From positions 1 through 43,389 of the IMG/VR virus record IMGVR_UViG_3300046517_001820: DNA of 43,389 nucleotides; one strand, 5' to 3'. How positions within the stretch are numbered: the first letter of the stretch is position 1; each line of letters starts with the position of its first letter. The translations under genes and the position numbers were made by a program. The DNA comes from a virus. The notes under the pieces were generated by a model. It saw only the letters and a list, made by a program, of their open reading frames with translations. It was not told the DNA's origin and searched no databases. Shown one piece after another: positions 3,783 through 17,984 of this stretch.

Positions 3783-4082
3783 ATGGCGCCAATAGTCAGC
3801 GACCCCCAGCGGAAGGCCATGTTCGCCGCCGCAAAAGGCAAGAGCACGCTCGGTATCCCGCGATCGGTCGGGCGGGAGTTCACCAAGGGCAGCGGGCCGA
3901 TGCCCGCCAGCTATGCCGAGGGCGGGCCGGTGATCCAGCAATCGCGCAGCCGCTTCTTCAAGGCGCCCGACCAGTTCCGCGAGAACATCGAACGCCAAAG
4001 CTATCCTAAGTCTGGCAAAACGGGCGAGATGTCGAACACCACCAAGGATAAGTCATTGCCCGCGATTAAACCGCGCGCCTGA
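3783..4082 (+). CDS. Small late protein, unknown
   Basis: A 99-residue basic protein starting 4 nt after the previous stop, with a purine-rich GGAGATAG ribosome site just upstream. It contains a YAEGGPV segment, and a similar Gly-Gly context occurs in the small late protein at 38174-38398. It is the last gene of the rightward late operon before the gene-free stretch. The family is not recognised with certainty; a minor virion role is inferred from position. Confidence 0.6.
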
Positions 4083-5667: not shown

Positions 5668-5986
5668 CGGAAGCTCCAGTATCGGCGAGAAGCCGTTCGA
5701 CGGTGGCGAGGCGGGTCGCAAGCTCTGCATTCTCGGCCTGTACGCGATTGACGTCGGCATACAGCGCCTCGATCTCGCCAGCGGTGACATTGGTGCGGGC
5801 GAAATCGTTGAAGGCCGCCCTGAGCGCGCGACTGTCCTGCTGCAGCACCACGAGCGCACGGCTGATGAGCGGCAGCCCGTCTAATTGCGCCCGCATAGGA
5901 GCCAGTTGCGCCCGTAGCCCGTCTAACTGCGCCCGGATAGGAGCCAACTCGGCCCGCAGGATGGTGCGAAAATCGTCATCGCTCAT
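5657..5986 (-). CDS. Coiled-coil protein with internal repeat
   Basis: A 109-residue protein predicted to be almost all helical. An internal duplication, about RAQLDGLRAQLAPMRAQLDG, is visible at residues 18-37 and is mirrored in the DNA near 5885-5945. The C-terminal half (about 70-105) has heptad-like leucine, alanine and valine spacing. It overlaps both neighbours by 11 nt (integrase downstream, HTH gene upstream), so all three are probably translated together. The function is unknown. Confidence 0.6.
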   Translation of the reverse strand: MSDDDFRTILRAELAPIRAQLDGLRAQLAPMRAQLDGLPLISRALVVLQQDSRALRAAFNDFARTNVTAGEIEALYADVNRVQAENAELATRLATVERLLADTGASDER

Positions 5987-7775: not shown

Positions 7776-8325
7776 CCCCTATGGTGCGCAGACTCTCGAC
7801 TGGGGAGCGCAGTATTGGCTCCCCGCGCATTCGCCGCTTGGCGTGCTTGCCCGGCTCATGCTTCCAATTCTTGCCGCGAACGATGTGGCCGATATTCTCG
7901 CGTGTGCAGCCGAACCGTGCCGCCAGCTCATCCTGCGAAAGGATGCCGTCGAGCGATCGGATTTCGACGGCCTGCTGATAGGTCAGCTTGTAACGGCGTC
8001 CCGGCATGAGTTTGCCGGCTCTGCCGTGCGCTTTGCGGTCGGCTTGGTTGGCTGTCGGTGTTTTCCACGACAGATGCCGTGGATTGCAGCAGCCACCAGT
8101 TCCGTTGCCACAGGAATGAGCCGCCTCGTGGCCTTCCGGTGCCGGCCCGTGGGCCATCTCGCACATGACCCGATGGGCCTTGAGGATGGTTCCGTTGATG
8201 CTGACACAGCCGTAGCCCCGGATGCGGTTAAGCGGCCACGCTAGACAATCGTCGCCGTCGTAGGCAACGCGCGCCTTGAGCCACGCTAGACCGGTGCCTT
8301 TGCCTCTGTTCGGTGGATGCGCCAT
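7747..8325 (-). CDS. HNH endonuclease with C-terminal HTH
   Basis: 192 residues. The start at 8325 is chosen for its AAAGGA ribosome site. An HNH_3-type nuclease core runs from AHRVMCEMAHG (about 52-62) through HEAAHSCGNG, CCNPRHL and NQADR (about 67-97): His-His-Asn catalytic residues with Cys ligands. A helix-turn-helix, SQDELAARFGCTRENIG, follows near 130-145 and probably contacts DNA. Such stand-alone HNH proteins in phages are usually homing endonucleases; a host-attack or packaging role is less likely this far from the terminase. Confidence 0.8.
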   Translation of the reverse strand: MAHPPNRGKGTGLAWLKARVAYDGDDCLAWPLNRIRGYGCVSINGTILKAHRVMCEMAHGPAPEGHEAAHSCGNGTGGCCNPRHLSWKTPTANQADRKAHGRAGKLMPGRRYKLTYQQAVEIRSLDGILSQDELAARFGCTRENIGHIVRGKNWKHEPGKHAKRRMRGEPILRSPVESLRTIGDDDGRPDER

Positions 8326-11421: not shown

Positions 11422-11747
11422 AATGGTAGCTCCGTGCGGGCGGCAAATTCCGCGGCGATCTCGTCCATCATGGCGATCTCGTGATCGGCCTGCTCCTGCG
11501 TCATGCGCCCCTTGGCAACGCTGTTTGGATAGACCCTTCGCCGCCAGGCCGCCTCGCGCAGCGCGCACTTGGCCTTTTCCTCGTCGGTGAAACGCGGATC
11601 CTCGTCCGCGTCAGGTTTTTTCCGCGGCATGGGCTCACCCTGTGGCTCTGGCTCGGTCGTCTTCCATTTATCGTAGTTCGTCATGCGTAGATCGAGTTGG
11701 TTCGTATCCATTCCGGCTTTGGCAAATGCGTCCTTGAACGCAGTCAT
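11418..11747 (-). CDS. Early protein sharing an N-terminal module with the 15526 gene
   Basis: 109 residues. The start is at 11747 with GGAGGAA upstream and an ATGA overlap with the RecT stop. It opens with MTAFKDAFAKAGMDT, nearly identical to the opening of the protein at 15526-16230. The rest is charged and helical. The shared opening suggests a docking or stability tag used by several proteins of this operon; the function is unknown. Confidence 0.6.
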   Translation of the reverse strand: MTAFKDAFAKAGMDTNQLDLRMTNYDKWKTTEPEPQGEPMPRKKPDADEDPRFTDEEKAKCALREAAWRRRVYPNSVAKGRMTQEQADHEIAMMDEIAAEFAARTELPL

Positions 11748-12772
11748 TTCGATTCCTCCGGGAACGTCGGCATTGGCGCGCCGTCGAAACCGGCTTCCCA
11801 AGCGCTTGCCTCGCGCGAATGCTCCGGGTCGCGGTATTCGGGCGGCATGCCTTTGCGCGGGCGGGCGAGCTCGCGCCAAGTCACGCCGCGCTTATAGGCA
11901 ACCTCGACAACGTCACCGCGGGCGGTCGGCGCAGGGCGAGGTGGATTGGGTGTGGCCTCGCCCTGCGCCTCGCCGGCCGCCTCCGGTCCTGACTCCATCG
12001 GCGGCGGCGTTTCGGGCTCGCCGGTCCCGGCAAAATGATCGAGCACGTTGCCGAAGACCGCGCCGCGCTGATCGGAGATCGTCTCGACGGGTTCAACGCC
12101 GAGCGATTCCGCCTCGTCGCGCTGCAGGAAGATGTCGATGTCGCTGGATTTCGGCAGCAGCTTCGACAGCACGCGCAGTGCAGTCTTGCGGCACATTTCT
12201 TCGAACCATTGTTTCCAAGGTGCATCGTCGCGCGAGGCTCGGCTCATGGCGCGGCGCTTGTCGATTTCGGCCATGGAAAGATCGGCGATGAAGCTGCCAC
12301 CGTCCTTGGTGGTGGCCAACGCATAGACCCGGCGGATTTTCTTGCCGGAATTGTCGTCCGCTGGAACGTGCTTGAAGTGCTCGCCCTCCTGGGTGATCCA
12401 GTGCTCATAAATATCGCCCTCGAAGACGATGCCGGTGCCGACCCAGCGGAATTGCCCGCTGTTGCGGAACTTCTTCAACAGCCCTTGGTACATCGGCAAA
12501 TATTGCGCCTTGTCCTTGTAGGGCACGATCGCCGCTTCCTGGCCGTCCGGCAGCAAGCCGTCTTGCGCGCAGCGCATGCAGGAAAGCCAGAGCGAACGCC
12601 GTTCGCACGCCATCAAAGCAGGGTTGAGCTGCACCGCGGTCATCACCGACGAGATAAACCTCTCTGGTTTCATGTGGGGCGGCAATGCCGTGCGCAAGGA
12701 ATCGACGCGCTCTTGCAGGTACGTGTTGAGCACGACCAGCGGGTGGTTTTGTTTTGTCACGGCTTCGGCCAT
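11744..12772 (-). CDS. recT: RecT-family single-strand annealing protein
   Basis: 342 residues from ATG 12772 (AGGA upstream; the ATG shares one base with the stop of the HNH gene). The RecT core is visible: FISSVMTAVQLNPALMAC, CAQDGLLPDGQEAAIVPYK, YLPMYQGLLKKFRNSGQF and the DDAPWKQWFEEMCRKTALR segment. RecT anneals single strands produced by its partner exonuclease and drives phage recombination. The last about 90 residues are Pro/Ala-rich. The partner YqaJ exonuclease is upstream, separated by an inserted HNH gene. Confidence 0.92.
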   Translation of the reverse strand: MAEAVTKQNHPLVVLNTYLQERVDSLRTALPPHMKPERFISSVMTAVQLNPALMACERRSLWLSCMRCAQDGLLPDGQEAAIVPYKDKAQYLPMYQGLLKKFRNSGQFRWVGTGIVFEGDIYEHWITQEGEHFKHVPADDNSGKKIRRVYALATTKDGGSFIADLSMAEIDKRRAMSRASRDDAPWKQWFEEMCRKTALRVLSKLLPKSSDIDIFLQRDEAESLGVEPVETISDQRGAVFGNVLDHFAGTGEPETPPPMESGPEAAGEAQGEATPNPPRPAPTARGDVVEVAYKRGVTWRELARPRKGMPPEYRDPEHSREASAWEAGFDGAPMPTFPEESK

Positions 12773-13293
12773 CAGCGTTGTCCTTTCGTCACTCTCCGAT
12801 TGCTGCTTTGCTCTGATTTCGTGGCCCATCGGCAATTGTCTGGCGAGTAGCCGCTATCGTTATCAATGCGGTCGATCGAATGATTTGCTGATGGCTTAGG
12901 CCCCATATCCTCGAAAAAATTCTCGAAACTATCCAGCCAGCGCTCGCAAACAGAAATGTCGCGCCCGCCATAATGTTTGAAATCCTTATTGTTTGGATTG
13001 TTGCACCGTTGTCTCATATGTATCCAGGAGTCATATTCTGGAGTCATGCCATTTCGACACTTTTGACCATGTTTCAAGGCCGGCTTGGTTTCGTGCCTCA
13101 GGCAACCACAAGATTGTTGGCCACCTAGTAATACTGAAAGGCGACGGGTAACTTGACGGCCGCAGTCGCATCGGCAGACCCAAAAACTTCGATCATCGCG
13201 GAATCCGTCCAAGCGGATTACGAGCAATCGTCCGTATCGTTCACCTGAACGATCACGAAAGCGCGGATGCTGTTTTCCTTTAAGGCGCGGCAC
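12772..13293 (-). CDS. HNH homing endonuclease between exonuclease and recT
   Basis: 173 residues. A zinc-ribbon-like part (CRCDCGRQ, then CGCLRHE, about residues 41-66) precedes a nuclease core with YGGRDISVCERW, SIDRIDNDSGY and NCRWATKSEQ. This family is typical of phage-borne, NUMOD-like HNH homing endonucleases. The DNA is visibly richer in A+T than its neighbours, a sign of separate origin. It overlaps the exonuclease gene by 14 nt and abuts recT, so it slots into the operon without breaking either gene. A relative lies at 36317-36913. Confidence 0.82.
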   Translation of the reverse strand: MPRLKGKQHPRFRDRSGERYGRLLVIRLDGFRDDRSFWVCRCDCGRQVTRRLSVLLGGQQSCGCLRHETKPALKHGQKCRNGMTPEYDSWIHMRQRCNNPNNKDFKHYGGRDISVCERWLDSFENFFEDMGPKPSANHSIDRIDNDSGYSPDNCRWATKSEQSSNRRVTKGQR

Positions 13294-14206
13294 TTTTCTT
13301 CCTCGTTATTCTCAACGTGCGAACTTCCTTCGCTGGCACAGTGAACTCATTGCGCAATACACTTTTCCAAGTGACGTTCCATTCCGGCAGGCCGACGACG
13401 CTCGACGCATCTCGCATCTTGAATTTCAGCATCGTTTCGATCTCGTCTTTGCGGGCCTCGAAGCCTTTGATCCCCGTCATGATTTCCTCGCGCTGCTCGA
13501 GCAGCGCGGGCAGTTCGTTGTCGCCGCTCAGGTCGACCGTCGTGCCGGCAACCTCGTGCGGCGCGATCACCTTGAGCAGCTCGGCGTCCCGGTTATAATC
13601 TGCATCGGGTTCGCGCCGGGTGGCGATGTCATCCCAGAACTGGACGACCGCCGCTTTGATGCGCTGCTCGGCGGCAGGGTGCCGCGGCACCTCGATGAGG
13701 GCCAATGCGAGATCGAAGGCATCGACCCGCAGGACGGCGACGGCTCCGAAGGCGGCCTTGGTCAGCATCGCTTCGGTAAGGACCTGCAACTGAATCCAAA
13801 ACGGCACCGTGGCGCCGCCTTCCCAATCGCGCTCAAAGATGTGTGGCGCGGCGGTCTTGGTTTGCAAAACGCCGAGGCCGCGCGGATCGCCGTGAATGAA
13901 GAAATCGGGAGTGGCACCGAGATGGAGCTCGGGATCACGATAATAAGAATCGCATTTCTCGATCTTCCAGTCCGGCCGCTCCTCGCTCACCGCCAGCGCG
14001 ACCGCCGGCTCCATCAACCGCCCGCGCCGCAACACGCGATCATCGGCCTGGTCGAATTCGACACCGGAATGAGCGAGATAAAGTTTGAGCGCCGACGTGT
14101 AGGGGTGAGCGCCGAAAAGGGCCGCAACGACACTGGCAGTCACGTCGGACTTGCGCAGATTCAGCCATTGATCGCGGCTGGTGATCTCGACGCGCTCAAT
14201 GCTCAT
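13280..14206 (-). CDS. YqaJ-type recombination exonuclease
   Basis: 308 residues, family of lambda-exonuclease-like PD-(D/E)XK nucleases that resect DNA ends for RecT. Visible motifs are RKSDVTASVVAALFG (about 18-32), RRGRLMEPAVAL, GATPDFFIHGD (Asp of the active site) and GVLQTKTA (the ExK-like element with Glu replaced by Gln), then WIQLQVLTEAML. A coiled-coil-like segment follows at about 235-265. The start at 14206 has GGAG upstream. The leader of this gene is hairpin array R1. Confidence 0.85.
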   Translation of the reverse strand: MSIERVEITSRDQWLNLRKSDVTASVVAALFGAHPYTSALKLYLAHSGVEFDQADDRVLRRGRLMEPAVALAVSEERPDWKIEKCDSYYRDPELHLGATPDFFIHGDPRGLGVLQTKTAAPHIFERDWEGGATVPFWIQLQVLTEAMLTKAAFGAVAVLRVDAFDLALALIEVPRHPAAEQRIKAAVVQFWDDIATRREPDADYNRDAELLKVIAPHEVAGTTVDLSGDNELPALLEQREEIMTGIKGFEARKDEIETMLKFKMRDASSVVGLPEWNVTWKSVLRNEFTVPAKEVRTLRITRKKSAAP

Positions 14207-14450
14207 TCATCATCTCCAAGAAAAGTGCGCGCCCGGCAAGAATCAAGTGGAAATCAAGGGTTCCAAGGCCGGGCGCGCTTCGCAGTCGCACCTTCGCCTT
14301 GGGCTTCATCGTCAGCCTGGCGACCGCAAACTGAGAAGGAGGAACGCGCCCGGCAAAGGGTGAATGGGAATCAACCAACATCTGGCCGGGCGCGCTTCGC
14401 GGTCGCAGTCGGAAGGTGGGCTTCACTGGTCTTCTGGCGACCGCAAACAT
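14196..14450 (-). CDS. Open frame running through hairpin array R1
   Basis: 84 residues, uninterrupted across the whole array. It starts 7 nt after the Transposase_20-like gene with GGAG 9 nt upstream and overlaps the exonuclease start by 11 nt. The peptide is Arg, Pro and Ala-rich and repeats the theme AVA-x3-VKP / RSAPG / AGR. It may be a real repeat protein, a leader peptide, or a by-product of G+C-rich hairpins that lack stops. See the array entry. Confidence 0.35.
   Translation of the reverse strand: MFAVARRPVKPTFRLRPRSAPGQMLVDSHSPFAGRVPPSQFAVARLTMKPKAKVRLRSAPGLGTLDFHLILAGRALFLEMMNEH
14225..14445. repeat. Hairpin array R1 (two units, four hairpins)
   Basis: Two units of about 117 bp. 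On the + strand each unit is a type B hairpin (GCGCGCCCGGCA ... TGGCCGGGCGCGC) followed by a type A hairpin (GGTCGCA ... TGGCGACC). Each loop is 27 nt: 9 variable, a 9-nt core near TGGGCWTCA, 9 variable. All eight variable segments are exactly 9 nt and none repeat. It lies between the Transposase_20-like gene and the exonuclease gene. Confidence 0.9.
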
Positions 14451-14456
14451 GATCGT

Positions 14457-15278
14457 TTACTCCGCGGCTTCGCGTTGGGGACGTTCGATCACATGGCCGG
14501 CGCGGGCATGCCATTCCACATGCAGGTCTTTGAGAAAAGCTTTCATCGCGACCCGCAGGCCGTCCATCCGTGAATGACCCTTCGTCCAATCCGGGTGAGT
14601 GATCGCCGTGTGCGCGCGGCGCGCAGCATAAATCTCGCCATATCGACCGTTCGGCTTCCCTTCGTCCGCGCCGGCCTTCTTGGCGCTTATCCATTGGGCA
14701 TTCACCAGCCAGATGGCGAGCTGGTGCATGAGCGCGTATCGTTGCCCGGAGAAAGGATGCTCGACCCACTCCTCGGAAGTCAGCGCGCGCGGGCGCCAGG
14801 ACGTGCGCTTCCAGGTCGAGCCGGCAAGCCCGTCGTAGGGCGCGAAGCCGAGCCGCTTCCAGAGCTTGGCGGGGTTCGAGTAGTTTGACAGATCGCCGGC
14901 CTCCGCGACGATGGTCGCGAGCCCGCGCAGACCGGCACCGTGAATGCTCTCGACCCAATCGGCGACCGGCAGCGATGCTGCAAGTTCCTCCATCCGCTTT
15001 TCGCAACCGGCGCGCAGCTTGTCGAATGGCTCGCGGCCCTTGTCGACCGTCAGCACCAGCTCGACAATGCGCTGATCGCCAGTCCCCTCGCGCGCAGCCG
15101 CGATGATCGCCTTGACCTCGCGATTGTATTTCTCGCGTTCCTTTTCGTCGGCGTCCCAAGACCAATCCGTGGCGTTGATACGGATGAACGACTCGAGCGA
15201 GCGATCCATCTTTTGTTGCTGCTTCATGGCCTGGCGGCGGAATCGATGCTCTGTTTTGACGTCGGCGATGGCGGTCAT
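14457..15278 (-). CDS. Transposase_20 (IS110-type C-terminal domain)-like protein
   Basis: 273 residues with AGGAG upstream; its ATG overlaps the stop of the array R2 frame (ATGA). Residues 1-105 are helical and charged. IHGAGLRGLATIVAEAGDL (112-130) and KLWKRLGFAPYDGLAGSTW (138-156) match the helix-hairpin-helix part of the Transposase_20 domain of IS110/IS1111 transposases, where a catalytic Ser lies just after this motif (S154 is a candidate). The N-terminal DEDD RuvC-like domain of full IS110 enzymes is absent. It lies between hairpin arrays R2 and R1 and next to a YqaJ/RecT pair. A domesticated recombinase or RNA-binding partner of the arrays is inference. Confidence 0.6.
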   Translation of the reverse strand: MTAIADVKTEHRFRRQAMKQQQKMDRSLESFIRINATDWSWDADEKEREKYNREVKAIIAAAREGTGDQRIVELVLTVDKGREPFDKLRAGCEKRMEELAASLPVADWVESIHGAGLRGLATIVAEAGDLSNYSNPAKLWKRLGFAPYDGLAGSTWKRTSWRPRALTSEEWVEHPFSGQRYALMHQLAIWLVNAQWISAKKAGADEGKPNGRYGEIYAARRAHTAITHPDWTKGHSRMDGLRVAMKAFLKDLHVEWHARAGHVIERPQREAAE

Positions 15279-15529
15279 GCGTGTTCGCTCCTGTGAGAAA
15301 GTGCGCGCCCGGCATCCGGTCGCTGGGGTTCACTGGACGTGTGGCCGGGCGCGCGCGGTCGCATTCCTGTGGTGGGCTTCACGGGTAGTTTGGCGACCGC
15401 ATTCGAGATAGGTGCGCGCCCGGCATCCTTAGAATGGGCATCACCATGGGCTTGGCCGGGCGCGCGCGGTCGCACAACGGCTTTGGGTTTCACCGCTGTG
15501 ATGGCGACCGCATTCGGAATATTGTTCAT
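15275..15529 (-). CDS. Open frame running through hairpin array R2
   Basis: 84 residues. Its ATG overlaps the stop of the gene before it (ATGA) and its TGA overlaps the ATG of the Transposase_20-like gene (ATGA). Double coupling is a real sign of translation. The peptide repeats AVA-x3-VKP-x-RPRAPG-x-DAGRA twice. It may be a genuine repeat protein or a translated leader that keeps ribosomes moving over structured RNA. Confidence 0.45.
   Translation of the reverse strand: MNNIPNAVAITAVKPKAVVRPRAPGQAHGDAHSKDAGRAPISNAVAKLPVKPTTGMRPRAPGHTSSEPQRPDAGRALSHRSEHA
15301..15510. repeat. Hairpin array R2 (two units, four hairpins)
   Basis: Two units with a 111-bp period and the same B-then-A architecture as R1. 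All eight loop segments are 9 nt and unique. Loop cores are TGGGGTTCA, TGGGCTTCA, TGGGCATCA and TGGGTTTCA. Stems are near identical to those of R1 and R3. The array ends 23 nt before the start of the Transposase_20-like gene. Confidence 0.9.
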
Positions 15530-16230
15530 GGCGCGATGGCTCGGCGGTTGTCGCGTTGCGTCTCGAGCCATGTGACCCACGCTTGCATTCCTTCCCCGAT
15601 CAGGCGCGGCGCCTCGACGTCCGCCTCGTCGCTGAGGATCTGCAGTTGCGTTTCGCTGATGGCGTCCTTCACCTTCACGGCGTGATCAGTGACGCGGACG
15701 TGTGCCTCTATCTTGTCGAGCAGAATGAAATTGGCCGTGGCTTCGTTGCCGTACCGGAGGTAGCTGGCCGCGTTGAAAGCGTTATTGTGCCGCAACGCTT
15801 GCAGCTCGCCCCACCGCAGTTCGCCGATCGGACGGCCGTCGATTTGGCGGTCATAGGCGCTTGCCATCGATGCTGCGGCATGACCCGCGGATCGCAAAGC
15901 GGCCTCGCGCTCCTCGTGGGTGCGGCGGCGATGCTGGCGAACCTTGTGCTCCTTGACCTTGATCGATCCGGCGGCCGGCGTGGCTGATGGCTGTGCCTGC
16001 GGCTGTTCTGCGGCGGCCAGTTGTGGCGGCTCGGCGGCAAGGCGCTCCAGATAATCGAGCGCGATCGCCTCGCGGAGATCGCCTTTGCTCTTGAGAACCG
16101 CGGAGAAACGAGTCGCGGCGCGGCCGACGTTGCCCTTGGCGGCATCAAGCGCCTCGGTCGCGGCGGCGCGGAGATCGAGCGCCCGGGTGTTCATTCCCGC
16201 TTTGGCAAAGGCGTCTTTCATAGCTGTCAT
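15526..16230 (-). CDS. Early protein, unknown, shared N-terminal module
   Basis: 234 residues from the ATG at 16230 with AAGGAG upstream. It opens with MTAMKDAFAKAGMNT, a module also found at the start of the 11418-11747 protein. A Gln/Pro/Ala linker (about 70-90) leads to a basic segment HKVRQHRRRTHEERE and a C-terminal helical domain (about 120-234). It is the first conventional gene of the leftward operon, between arrays R3 and R2. The basic centre could bind nucleic acid. No family was recognised. Confidence 0.65.
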   Translation of the reverse strand: MTAMKDAFAKAGMNTRALDLRAAATEALDAAKGNVGRAATRFSAVLKSKGDLREAIALDYLERLAAEPPQLAAAEQPQAQPSATPAAGSIKVKEHKVRQHRRRTHEEREAALRSAGHAAASMASAYDRQIDGRPIGELRWGELQALRHNNAFNAASYLRYGNEATANFILLDKIEAHVRVTDHAVKVKDAISETQLQILSDEADVEAPRLIGEGMQAWVTWLETQRDNRRAIAP

Positions 16231-16252
16231 TTGCAGGTCTCCTTGTGAAAGA

Positions 16253-16699
16253 GTGCGCGCCCGGCACATTGCTATTGGGGGTCAGCTTTCAATTGGCCGG
16301 GCGCGCGCGGTCGCAGAGGTGCAGTGGGCTTCACAAGGAACCTGGCGACCGATTGGGTGATAAGTGCGCGCCCGGCATCCTCGTCCTGGGCATCAAATTT
16401 CATCTGGCCGGGCGCGCGAGGCGGTCGCATTGCAGCGGACCCGATTTGTTCATCGGCAGCGTTGCGACCGCTTTCGGTATGGGGTGCGCGCCCAGCAGGC
16501 CCTTCTTTGGGAACCACATCCGCACTGGCCGGGCGCGCGGACGGTCGCAGTACGATCAGGGGCTCCACAGCTTTGATGGCGACCGTTTTCGGGGAAAGGT
16601 GCGCGCCCGGCAGCAGCCGATTGGGCATCACTTTGGGCGTAGCCGGGCGCGCGGACGGTCGCAATTCGATAGAGGGCTTCACCCGCGAACTGGCGACCG
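16253..16699. repeat. Hairpin array R3 (four units, eight hairpins)
   Basis: Four units with periods of 111, 120 and 115 bp, the same B-then-A hairpins. Variable loop segments are 9 nt, with one of 10 nt (unit 3, type B). One type A loop (unit 2) has a 14-nt core in place of 9. Unit 3 carries a single stem change (CCCAGC for CCCGGC). Spacing changes fall in the linkers between hairpins, not in the loops. It is the first thing transcribed from the leftward promoter. Confidence 0.9.
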
Positions 16700-16715
16700 T
16701 TTTAGGAATTGGCAT
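16272..16715 (-). CDS. Open frame running through hairpin array R3
   Basis: 147 residues, starting MPIPKTVASSRVKP with a strong GGGAG ribosome site 8 nt upstream, and ending at a TAG inside the last loop. In the first two units a 2-nt linker difference shifts the frame, giving RPSARPA where other units read RPRAPGQ, so the peptide repeat is not conserved throughout. That argues that RNA or DNA structure, not the peptide, is the conserved object, though the start signal is good. Confidence 0.4.
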   Translation of the reverse strand: MPIPKTVASSRVKPSIELRPSARPATPKVMPNRLLPGAHLSPKTVAIKAVEPLIVLRPSARPASADVVPKEGPAGRAPHTESGRNAADEQIGSAAMRPPRAPGQMKFDAQDEDAGRALITQSVARFLVKPTAPLRPRAPGQLKADPQ

Positions 16716-16746: not shown

Positions 16747-16775
16747 CACTAATTCACAGAACGTGAATATGTCAA
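16747..16775 (-). promoter_or_regulatory. Leftward early promoter (pL-like)
   Basis: Reading leftward, TTGACA (16775-16770) is followed after exactly 17 nt by TTAGTG (16752-16747). Operator O1 fills the spacer, so repressor binding would block RNA polymerase. Transcription would begin near 16740 and enter array R3. Confidence 0.65.
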
Positions 16776-16798
16776 CGAGTTATTTCACGGTGCGTGAA
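16753..16798. promoter_or_regulatory. Operators O1 and O2 (TTCAC-N5-GTGAA)
   Basis: Two 15-bp dyads, TTCACAGAACGTGAA (16753-16767) and TTCACGGTGCGTGAA (16784-16798), lie between the leftward operon and the repressor stop. They share half-sites with O3 and O4 on the other side of the repressor, the usual layout of left and right phage operators. Confidence 0.8.
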
Positions 16799-16799
16799 T

Positions 16800-17177
16800 T
16801 TAGTGGGGAGGGCGCCGCTTGGGTTTGCGACCGCGCTTCCGACTCAGATCGACGGGGCCGAGCCGCTCAGCATGACGGATTTTCTCCAGCAGGTCGGCCG
16901 GCAGGCGGCTGCGGTCACCGTCAAAAATCCAATCGAACGTAACGCCGTACTCGTCTTTGAGCCGATACATGACGTCGATGGTGATCCGCCGCCCGCGATC
17001 TGGGTCTGGGTCGATATATTGTGACCACTGGTTGTCGCTCAACCCAACGTTCTCGCAAAAAATTGGGGTCGAGACGTCGAGGGCTATGCGCGTCAATTCG
17101 AGCCGAGTGGCTATGTCACGCTGGGTTCTGGACATGGCCGAAGTTGGGTCAGGTTCACGGTCTGTGAAAATCGCCAT
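16800..17177 (-). CDS. CI-like phage repressor (XRE HTH)
   Basis: 125 residues if started at 17177; a shorter start at 17135 (MSRTQRDIATR) is also plausible and would leave operator O3 outside the gene. The N-terminal half has an XRE-type HTH (VGLSDNQWSQYIDPD...RRITIDVMYRL). The C-terminus is short and basic (KRGRKPKRR). There is no LexA-like peptidase domain, so induction would not be by RecA self-cleavage in cis. Flanking operators and divergent promoters make a lysogeny repressor the likeliest role. Confidence 0.7.
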   Translation of the reverse strand: MAIFTDREPDPTSAMSRTQRDIATRLELTRIALDVSTPIFCENVGLSDNQWSQYIDPDPDRGRRITIDVMYRLKDEYGVTFDWIFDGDRSRLPADLLEKIRHAERLGPVDLSRKRGRKPKRRPPH

Positions 17178-17211
17178 GTTGTGAATTCTTGACTTATTCA
17201 CGTAACGTGAA
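17154..17211. promoter_or_regulatory. Operators O3 and O4 (TTCAC-N5-GTGAA)
   Basis: O3 is TTCACGGTCTGTGAA (17154-17168) and O4 is TTCACGTAACGTGAA (17197-17211). O4 sits exactly in the spacer of the rightward promoter. O3 overlaps the start region of the repressor and may set its autoregulation. Confidence 0.8.
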
Positions 17212-17462: not shown

Positions 17463-17984
17463 GTGCTGTTCATGCGCAGAATATCGAGCAGTGCTGCGCT
17501 TTCAGCGAATCATGGGGGTGGCGGAACGTGCACCACTTCGGGCACAGCGCGGCACCTGAATTCCGCGATAGTCCAATGTTTGCGGGCAAATTTTCCGCGC
17601 AAGACGTGGCTCCGATTGATTGAATTTACTGGCCTTTCGGAGCGCACCGCAAAGTATCGAATGAGCGGACAGCGCGATTTCAGCGCCAGCGAACTCGCCG
17701 CCTTATTGCGCTCCGAGCGCGGGCTCGACTTCCTCGCCGCCATCATGGCCGACGCCGAGCCGAAATGGTGGGTGATGGTCCGCTCCGCATTCAAGCTTGG
17801 CGCCATGCGCCGTCACCGGCAGCAATTGCAAGAGGCGATCAATGAAGCCGAGCGACTGGGGGACACGCTGGCCCGGGCGGAAACTGCCCTGGGCGTTTGC
17901 GATGAGGAATTCCATCGCCCTCAGATTGATGCGCTGGACGCGATCCGTAGCGATCTTTGTCGCGCCCTGGCTCGGAAACGATGA
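17463..17984 (+). CDS. Putative DNA-binding early regulator
   Basis: 173 residues from GTG 17463, or 170 from ATG 17472; no clear ribosome site decides. FTGLSERTAKYRMSGQRDFS (about 55-74) followed by ELAALLRSERGLDFL resembles an HTH found in small phage regulators. The C-terminal third is a coiled coil (QQLQEAINEAERLGDTLARA). A CII-like or replication-control role is possible from position, but no close family was recognised. Confidence 0.55.
   Translation: MLFMRRISSSAALSANHGGGGTCTTSGTARHLNSAIVQCLRANFPRKTWLRLIEFTGLSERTAKYRMSGQRDFSASELAALLRSERGLDFLAAIMADAEPKWWVMVRSAFKLGAMRRHRQQLQEAINEAERLGDTLARAETALGVCDEEFHRPQIDALDAIRSDLCRALARKR

Follow-up and report, generated by a model that had tools for sequence, protein, structure and literature searches.

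What do arrays of repeats that fold as rows of hairpins, and that can also be read as open frames, do in the early operon of a phage? We address this question for a soil phage represented by IMG/VR virus record IMGVR_UViG_3300046517_001820, of which we analysed positions 1 to 43,389 (this whole stretch of 43,389 nucleotides (nt) is called the window below), and in particular for its three arrays R1, R2, and R3 and the tasA gene that lies between R2 and R1. An original prediction, made from the letters of the sequence, had described the arrays as open frames with start signals and stop/start coupling that may be dual-purpose or translated leaders. We find that they are, close to certainly, stem-loop TIGR arrays of a TasA system, and we give a probability of about 75% to the reading that they provide RNA-guided local exclusion of rival alleles, on a transcript that can be translated to couple the flanking genes. 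According to the discoverers of TIGR-Tas, natural targets are difficult to identify and it is unclear what nuclease-less TasA does; they also considered competition between elements (Faure et al. 2025, PMC12045711). Phage contigs compared with the window are labelled by G-numbers or L-numbers.

Guide units, target geometry, and probable targets in sibling phages

On the minus strand, the intact unit reads stem-CCA-N9-UG-N4-CCA-N9-UG-stem. Of the 16 units in the window, 15 are intact, with boxes C and D, dual spacers, and palindromic hairpins, and one is decayed; a few boxes show single-base departures. As the original prediction had seen in its 9-nt segments, 29 of the 30 spacers of the intact units are 9 nt long (the remaining one is 10 nt), a near-uniformity that is partly built in because the detector accepts 8–10 nt and prefers 9. 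Two stem families alternate, S1 (GCGGTCGC...GCGACCGC) and S2 (GCGCGCCCGG...CCGGGCGCGC), with pairing kept where their sequences differ (again partly built into the detector), and R2 folds far more stably than shuffled sequences (z = −5.9). No Rfam RNA family matched the arrays at its curated score, and there was one sub-threshold chance match.

The protein encoded by tasA is recognizable as a Tas protein. All 16 of the aligned TasA members matched Transposase_20 (Pfam), the best PDB sequence match of the window's TasA was TasR 9mty (E = 2.4e-5), and its AlphaFold model, which is good (pLDDT, the predicted local distance difference test, 84.6), retrieved TasR 9mty and TasH at the top in Foldseek with probability 1.0 and IS621 well below. 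Sequence and modelled fold both give TIGR-TasR as the best match. An IS110 transposon with a DEDD catalytic domain and a bridge RNA was ruled out, as the protein is all-helical, 273 residues long, and matched by Pfam in the C-terminal domain only.

How the two spacers are read could be deduced from their statistics. A protein search yielded 8 contigs and a scan of IMG/VR for the array pattern yielded 24 DNA stretches, together 23 contigs; adding the window brings the set to 24 contigs and 345 units, with 299 distinct 9+9 spacer pairs. The matrix of spacer A against spacer B (9 × 9) has a single strongly covarying cell, A9–B9 (z = 9.8), where complementarity reaches 48% for Watson–Crick pairs versus ~22% expected, and 72% when G-U is included, with other positions near background. 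In a split-match search, which was repeated on 84 contigs, an excess appeared for a single arrangement, in which spacer A precedes the reverse complement of spacer B and one base is shared; same-strand (A+B) and inverted (rcA+B) arrangements stayed at background, as did every other gap between −3 and +4. This pattern points to a target of 17 base pairs (bp) in which spacers A and B would read opposite strands and have the central base pair in common.

Guides of this geometry find matches in the window's relatives. Among 25 contigs of the window's phage group with 56 guides, and against 2000 shuffles of B among A, three guides had exact matches outside the shared base (shuffle mean 0.08) and six had matches with at most one mismatch (shuffle mean 0.82), each at P < 1/2000. 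Two-mismatch sites numbered 23 against 9 ± 3 in shuffles, and 52% of their mismatches fell at codon position 3, against 28% in shuffles. Most guides are without a target found so far, and the original TIGR-Tas authors weigh inter-element competition, both of which would suit a general defence against unrelated mobile elements in which sibling matches are incidental; this is nevertheless quite improbable, since the guides of other phage groups gave 0 exact matches on the same contigs where the group's own guides do match, and the matches are biased to adjacent homologous genes.

Judged from such matches, the natural targets are probably tasA, recT, exo, a VRR-type nuclease gene, the gene beside cro, and a repressor operator of related phages. 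The guide of R2 unit 4 has a 17-bp match to tasA of G001–G003 (9/9 in spacer A and 8/9 in spacer B) and six mismatches to the window's own tasA (sites CACGTCCAGCCGGTCGC in G001 and CAAGACCAATCCGTGGC in the window). For R3 unit 6, which has a one-mismatch match in G020, a prediction was tested by a search of IMG/VR for the exact 17-mer. There were five matches: that in L319 falls, as expected, at the DEEFHRP motif of a gene homologous to the one at 17463 of the window (36% over 171 residues), that in L317 falls at the same motif, that in L318 is probably chance, and those in L316 and L320 are doubtful; the window's own gene has three synonymous differences from the guide. The best match of R3 unit 8 is at codon 144 of the DUF6195-like gene (duf) of G004, with two mismatches, versus five in the adjacent duf of the window. 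Elsewhere, guides of G002, G004, and G020 match recT or exo, the G002 guide at 3808 exactly matches a nuclease gene (VRR-type by sequence) of four relatives, and the G001 guide at 1749 is an exact match to one of the three CTTTGC-N5-GCAAAG operators around the G020 repressor and has one mismatch to a second. Dyad-symmetric sites were not enriched, and operators were therefore rejected as a general class of target. Separately, G010 (L075) carries units at 7950 and 9700 with nearly the same guide, one base apart (AGAAGCGCG or AGAAGCGTG / GCGCCGCTT), as if covering two variants of one target.

The guides also favour the gene next to which they lie. When each guide was translated in the gene's frame and a five-residue match with up to four mismatches was sought in its own contig, the adjacent gene was matched 10 times versus 1.7 expected (P < 1/400), while non-adjacent genes were matched at background (8 versus 9.3 expected); unrelated phages alone gave seven adjacent-gene matches versus 0.7 expected (P < 1/400). 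None of the 299 guides matched its own contig exactly. Own copies carry 2–6 mismatches, never fewer than the best rival allele, so that a guide is similar to the gene beside it yet corresponds to another allele, which differs mostly at synonymous sites. Matching at the peptide level (up to four mismatches) to the genes of the whole group was no better than the best shuffles, and for this reason the stricter tests alone were used there. The far-beyond-chance resemblance to the adjacent gene, together with the guide that matches a relative's repressor operator, might be taken to mean that the guides autoregulate the carrier's own flanking genes; we regard this as improbable, given that exact self-matches are absent and that relatives match equally well or better.

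Open frames of the arrays

The signals named in the original prediction are present. R3 has GGGGAG and an ATG at 16715, and R2 is linked by ATGA overlaps at both ends (its ATG at 15529 with the TGA of the upstream gene, and its TGA at 15277–15275 with the tasA ATG at 15278). R1, which at 14196–14450 lies outside the interval that the prediction covered, also has its start signal, with the ATG at 14450 just after tasA and the TGA a few codons past the ATG of the exonuclease gene (14206). The 84 residues of both R1 and R2 and the 2-nt linker differences between R3 units are likewise real. The description as open frames holds in full for R1 and R2, but the 147 codons of R3 are stopped at 16272 within the last unit, and R3 alone therefore falls short of the next gene.

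On their own, the window's frames prove little, because with random spacers R1 or R2 alone would be stop-free with a probability of ~0.5. Across the 24 contigs, however, a stop-free frame exists in 25 of 35 arrays; permuting the real spacers gave 15.2 ± 2.4 such arrays and never more than 21 in 300 shuffles, and random genomic 9-mers gave 16.6 ± 2.2. The minimum stops summed over the 35 arrays are 20 against 37.4 ± 4.7 with permuted spacers. An earlier null based on single-base composition (12.0 ± 2.4) was dropped as it overstates the effect. Stop depletion by codon offset is weak when all units are pooled, since S1 and S2 units do not share a frame, and the per-array test is the valid one.

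The coupling of R2 at both ends is retained in the window and G001–G004 despite different spacers, and between phages with 86–91% identity in TasA the spacers, and hence the peptide, have been replaced. Open frames beyond chance combined with a replaced peptide indicate that openness is selected and the peptide is not. A conventional protein gene with a conserved peptide was accordingly rejected, as the peptide is replaced among close relatives while the frame stays open. The stop-free frames, the ATG, and the coupling signals would also be expected if the arrays encoded repetitive proteins (AVAxxxVKPxxxLRPRAPGQ repeats) with the hairpins as by-products of codon repeats, yet this is very improbable: S1 and S2 units of R2 are in different frames, so that one box motif encodes residues that differ between them; phages with 90% identical TasA have had the peptide replaced; linkers in R3 change by 2 nt; the array peptides match no family; stems stay paired where S1 and S2 differ (in part by construction of the detector); and the spacers match other phages as split guides.

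The original prediction held that codon-level purifying selection would weaken an RNA model and in-frame stops in relatives a protein model; the former was not seen on the peptide, and the latter are rarer than chance, yet occur in every frame in some relatives (G007 and G022). Its suggestion of dual-purpose arrays or translated leaders survives as far as the frame is selected to be open and R2 coupling is kept in G001–G004, but not as to selection on the peptide, and the guide-RNA nature of the hairpins had gone unseen.

Distribution and genomic neighbourhood

TasA is present in 17 of the 23 array contigs. Neither a TasA relative nor the array pattern was found in GTDB species genomes, plasmids gave no match, and named phages gave a single distant match, in Arthrobacter phage Talia1610. 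TasA is missing from close relatives, with identities reaching 97% for the portal protein and 89% for the exonuclease, and the cassette is therefore accessory.

The arrays are interleaved with exo, tasA, and duf in the early operon (Table 1). The last of these is found solely in TasA-bearing contigs (12/12) and is a candidate Tas partner; on whether it is a TasParB-type partner, this co-occurrence has to be set against a sole, weak match to DUF6195 and a structure model too poor for a fold search (pLDDT 62). The window has an HNH endonuclease gene at the exo-recT junction; in G002, G004, and G020 exactly this slot is occupied by guide units directed at exo or recT, so that two kinds of proposed exclusion element share it. 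Four TTCAC-N5-GTGAA sites lie in and around the repressor gene (16753, 16784, 17154, and 17197) and are probable operators. G027 shares this immunity region (repressor and cro-like protein 99–100% identical) and has no tasA. At 5874–5956, two tandem 42-nt copies with 85% matches are not related to the arrays.

Table 1 Features of the window, with guide units listed in the order of the minus strand
Feature	Coordinates	Strand	Stem	Spacers A / B	Remarks
R3 array	16715-16257	minus			
R3 unit 1	16654..16701	minus	S1	GTTCGCGGG / CTATCGAAT	box C' read as CCT
R3 unit 2	16603..16650	minus	S2	CGCCCAAAG / ATCGGCTGC	
R3 unit 3	16540..16587	minus	S1	TCAAAGCTG / TGATCGTAC	
R3 unit 4	16488..16536	minus	S2	GTGCGGATG / AAGAAGGGCC	spacer B of 10 nt
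R3 unit 5, decayed	16421..16471	minus	S1		stem retained; boxes and spacer lengths gone
R3 unit 6	16368..16415	minus	S2	GATGAAATT / GGACGAGGA	probable target in homologs of gene at 17463 (DEEFHRP)
R3 unit 7	16306..16353	minus	S1	GGTTCCTTG / CTGCACCTC	
R3 unit 8	16257..16304	minus	S2	ATTGAAAGC / ATAGCAATG	best match G004 duf, codon 144
R2 array	15529-15275	minus			
R2 unit 1	15465..15512	minus	S1	TCACAGCGG / AAGCCGTTG	
R2 unit 2	15416..15463	minus	S2	AGCCCATGG / TTCTAAGGA	spacer A common to G002/G003
R2 unit 3	15354..15401	minus	S1	AACTACCCG / CCACAGGAA	
R2 unit 4	15305..15352	minus	S2	CACGTCCAG / GCGACCGGA	matches tasA of G001-G003
R1 array	14450-14196	minus			
R1 unit 1	14398..14445	minus	S1	GAAGACCAG / CCTTCCGAC	
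R1 unit 2	14346..14393	minus	S2	GATGTTGGT / TTCACCCTT	
R1 unit 3	14281..14328	minus	S1	GGCTGACGA / AGGCGAAGG	
R1 unit 4	14229..14276	minus	S2	TGGAACCCT / CTTGATTCT	
R3 open frame	16272..16715	minus			GGGGAG-ATG; 147 codons; stop within last unit
R2 open frame	15275..15529	minus			84 amino acids; same frame open in G001-G004
R1 open frame	14196..14450	minus			84 amino acids; also open in G001, G002
tasA	14457..15278	minus			273 amino acids; IS110-C-terminal/Nop-type; without nuclease domain
duf, DUF6195-like	15526..16230	minus			upstream of tasA; start codon inferred
exo, RecE-like (YqaJ) exonuclease	13280..14206	minus			homologs targeted by guides in G002, G020
HNH endonuclease (PHROG 374)	12772..13293	minus			exo-recT junction
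RecT	11744..12835	minus			homologs targeted by guides in G002, G004, G020
Phage repressor, probable	16800..17201	minus			
TTCAC-N5-GTGAA x2, probable operators	16753..16798	.			upstream of R3
Gene beside cro	17463..17984	plus			DEEFHRP motif

Predicted mechanism and known systems

In the mechanism that we propose, each hairpin unit would yield one guide RNA. With box C (CCA) and box D (UG) joined by the stem around its two 9-nt spacers, this RNA would be bound by a TasA dimer, by analogy with TasR and the published TasA stem-loop array. The guide would recognize 17 bp of double-stranded DNA, spacer A on one strand and spacer B on the other, both reading the central base pair. The predicted targets are gene alleles of close relatives, which are probably competitors for the same hosts, and often belong to the gene flanking the guide; the allele of the carrier differs, mostly at synonymous positions, and would therefore escape its own guide. 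As TasA is without a nuclease domain, it probably prevents the rival allele from being transcribed or replicated, or shifts recombination in mixed infections towards the carrier's allele. The arrays would be kept stop-free because they lie between early genes of one operon, so that ribosomes may pass to the next start and Rho may be kept off.

The TIGR-TasA stem-loop array of a Peromyscus gut contig (Faure et al. 2025, PMC12045711) likewise has a nuclease-less Tas protein, hairpin units in which boxes C and D border two 8–12-nt spacers, and three subarrays ~450 nt apart, whereas the window's system has two alternating stem families, interleaved early-operon genes, an open frame, and a shared central base. 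TIGR-TasR/TasH dual-repeat arrays share the CCA/UG boxes, 9-nt spacers, one strand per spacer, the order of A then reverse complement of B, and the Nop fold, but have edge repeats where the window has hairpins, and the window's system is without a nuclease; TasR spacers show no covariation and read 18 contiguous bp, as opposed to covarying A9–B9 and 17 bp with one shared base. The bridge RNA of IS110/IS621 also carries two guides on opposite strands that both include the core and so overlap (PMC11208160), and the C-terminal domain is related; it differs in its 2-nt core, DEDD recombinase domain, and donor loop, while the window's protein has no catalytic domain and is accompanied by arrays. 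CRISPR and mini-CRISPR arrays also combine variable guides with constant parts, but here the guides are split (9+9 nt) in hairpins and no Cas protein was found. As far as the open-access literature shows, the shared central base pair, the sibling targets with a favoured adjacent gene, and the stop-free constraint on the arrays are each new, though priority is not certain.

The phage homing endonucleases SegF and SegG (PMC2988022) are alike in that an element beside a gene acts on a rival's version while the carrier's is resistant; here, recognition is predicted to be by RNA guide, with many sites per array and no known cleavage. In a variant of this kind, TasA would bend or mark the rival allele and thereby promote its RecE/RecT-type replacement by the carrier's, as homing without cleavage. 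Such homing is possible, if on balance unlikely: the guides adjoin and target exo, recT, and tasA, an HNH endonuclease sits in the same junction of the window, and local marker exclusion is known from free-standing homing endonucleases (PMC2988022), but TasA has no nuclease domain.

Several points weigh against RNA-guided exclusion of sibling alleles with a translatable transcript. Only 3 of the 15 intact guides of the window have an assigned target, one of them weak (two mismatches), and the exact-target counts are small, with 3–4 independent cases. The mismatch of R2 unit 4 to tasA falls at spacer B base 9, and the exact 17-mer of R3 unit 8 had 40 scattered matches in IMG/VR with 0 in duf homologs. 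The A9–B9 covariation could also stem from RNA–RNA pairing inside the guide. G020 (L092) has two guide units, at 5968 and 6020, against recT and exo and no tasA in its 27-kilobase contig; this orphan array may rely on TasA from another phage or be a remnant. Finally, the arrays of G007 and G022 have stops in every frame, so translation is not obligatory, and as two large arrays are not open, the need for openness depends on context.

More tentatively, and with somewhat less than even confidence, the system may be a natural, drive-like form of RNA-guided allele exclusion, in which a guide linked to its own resistant neighbour allele acts on siblings' alleles so that guide and gene spread together, with the array serving as a stop-free translated coupler. 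Synthetic cleave-and-rescue drives are similar in that guide and resistant allele spread together; here there is no nuclease. If the proposed function is true, TIGR-TasA would join the weapons of inter-phage competition, linked to intronless homing, and its probable natural targets would now have a geometry, a logic (sibling alleles), and a side constraint (stop-free arrays).

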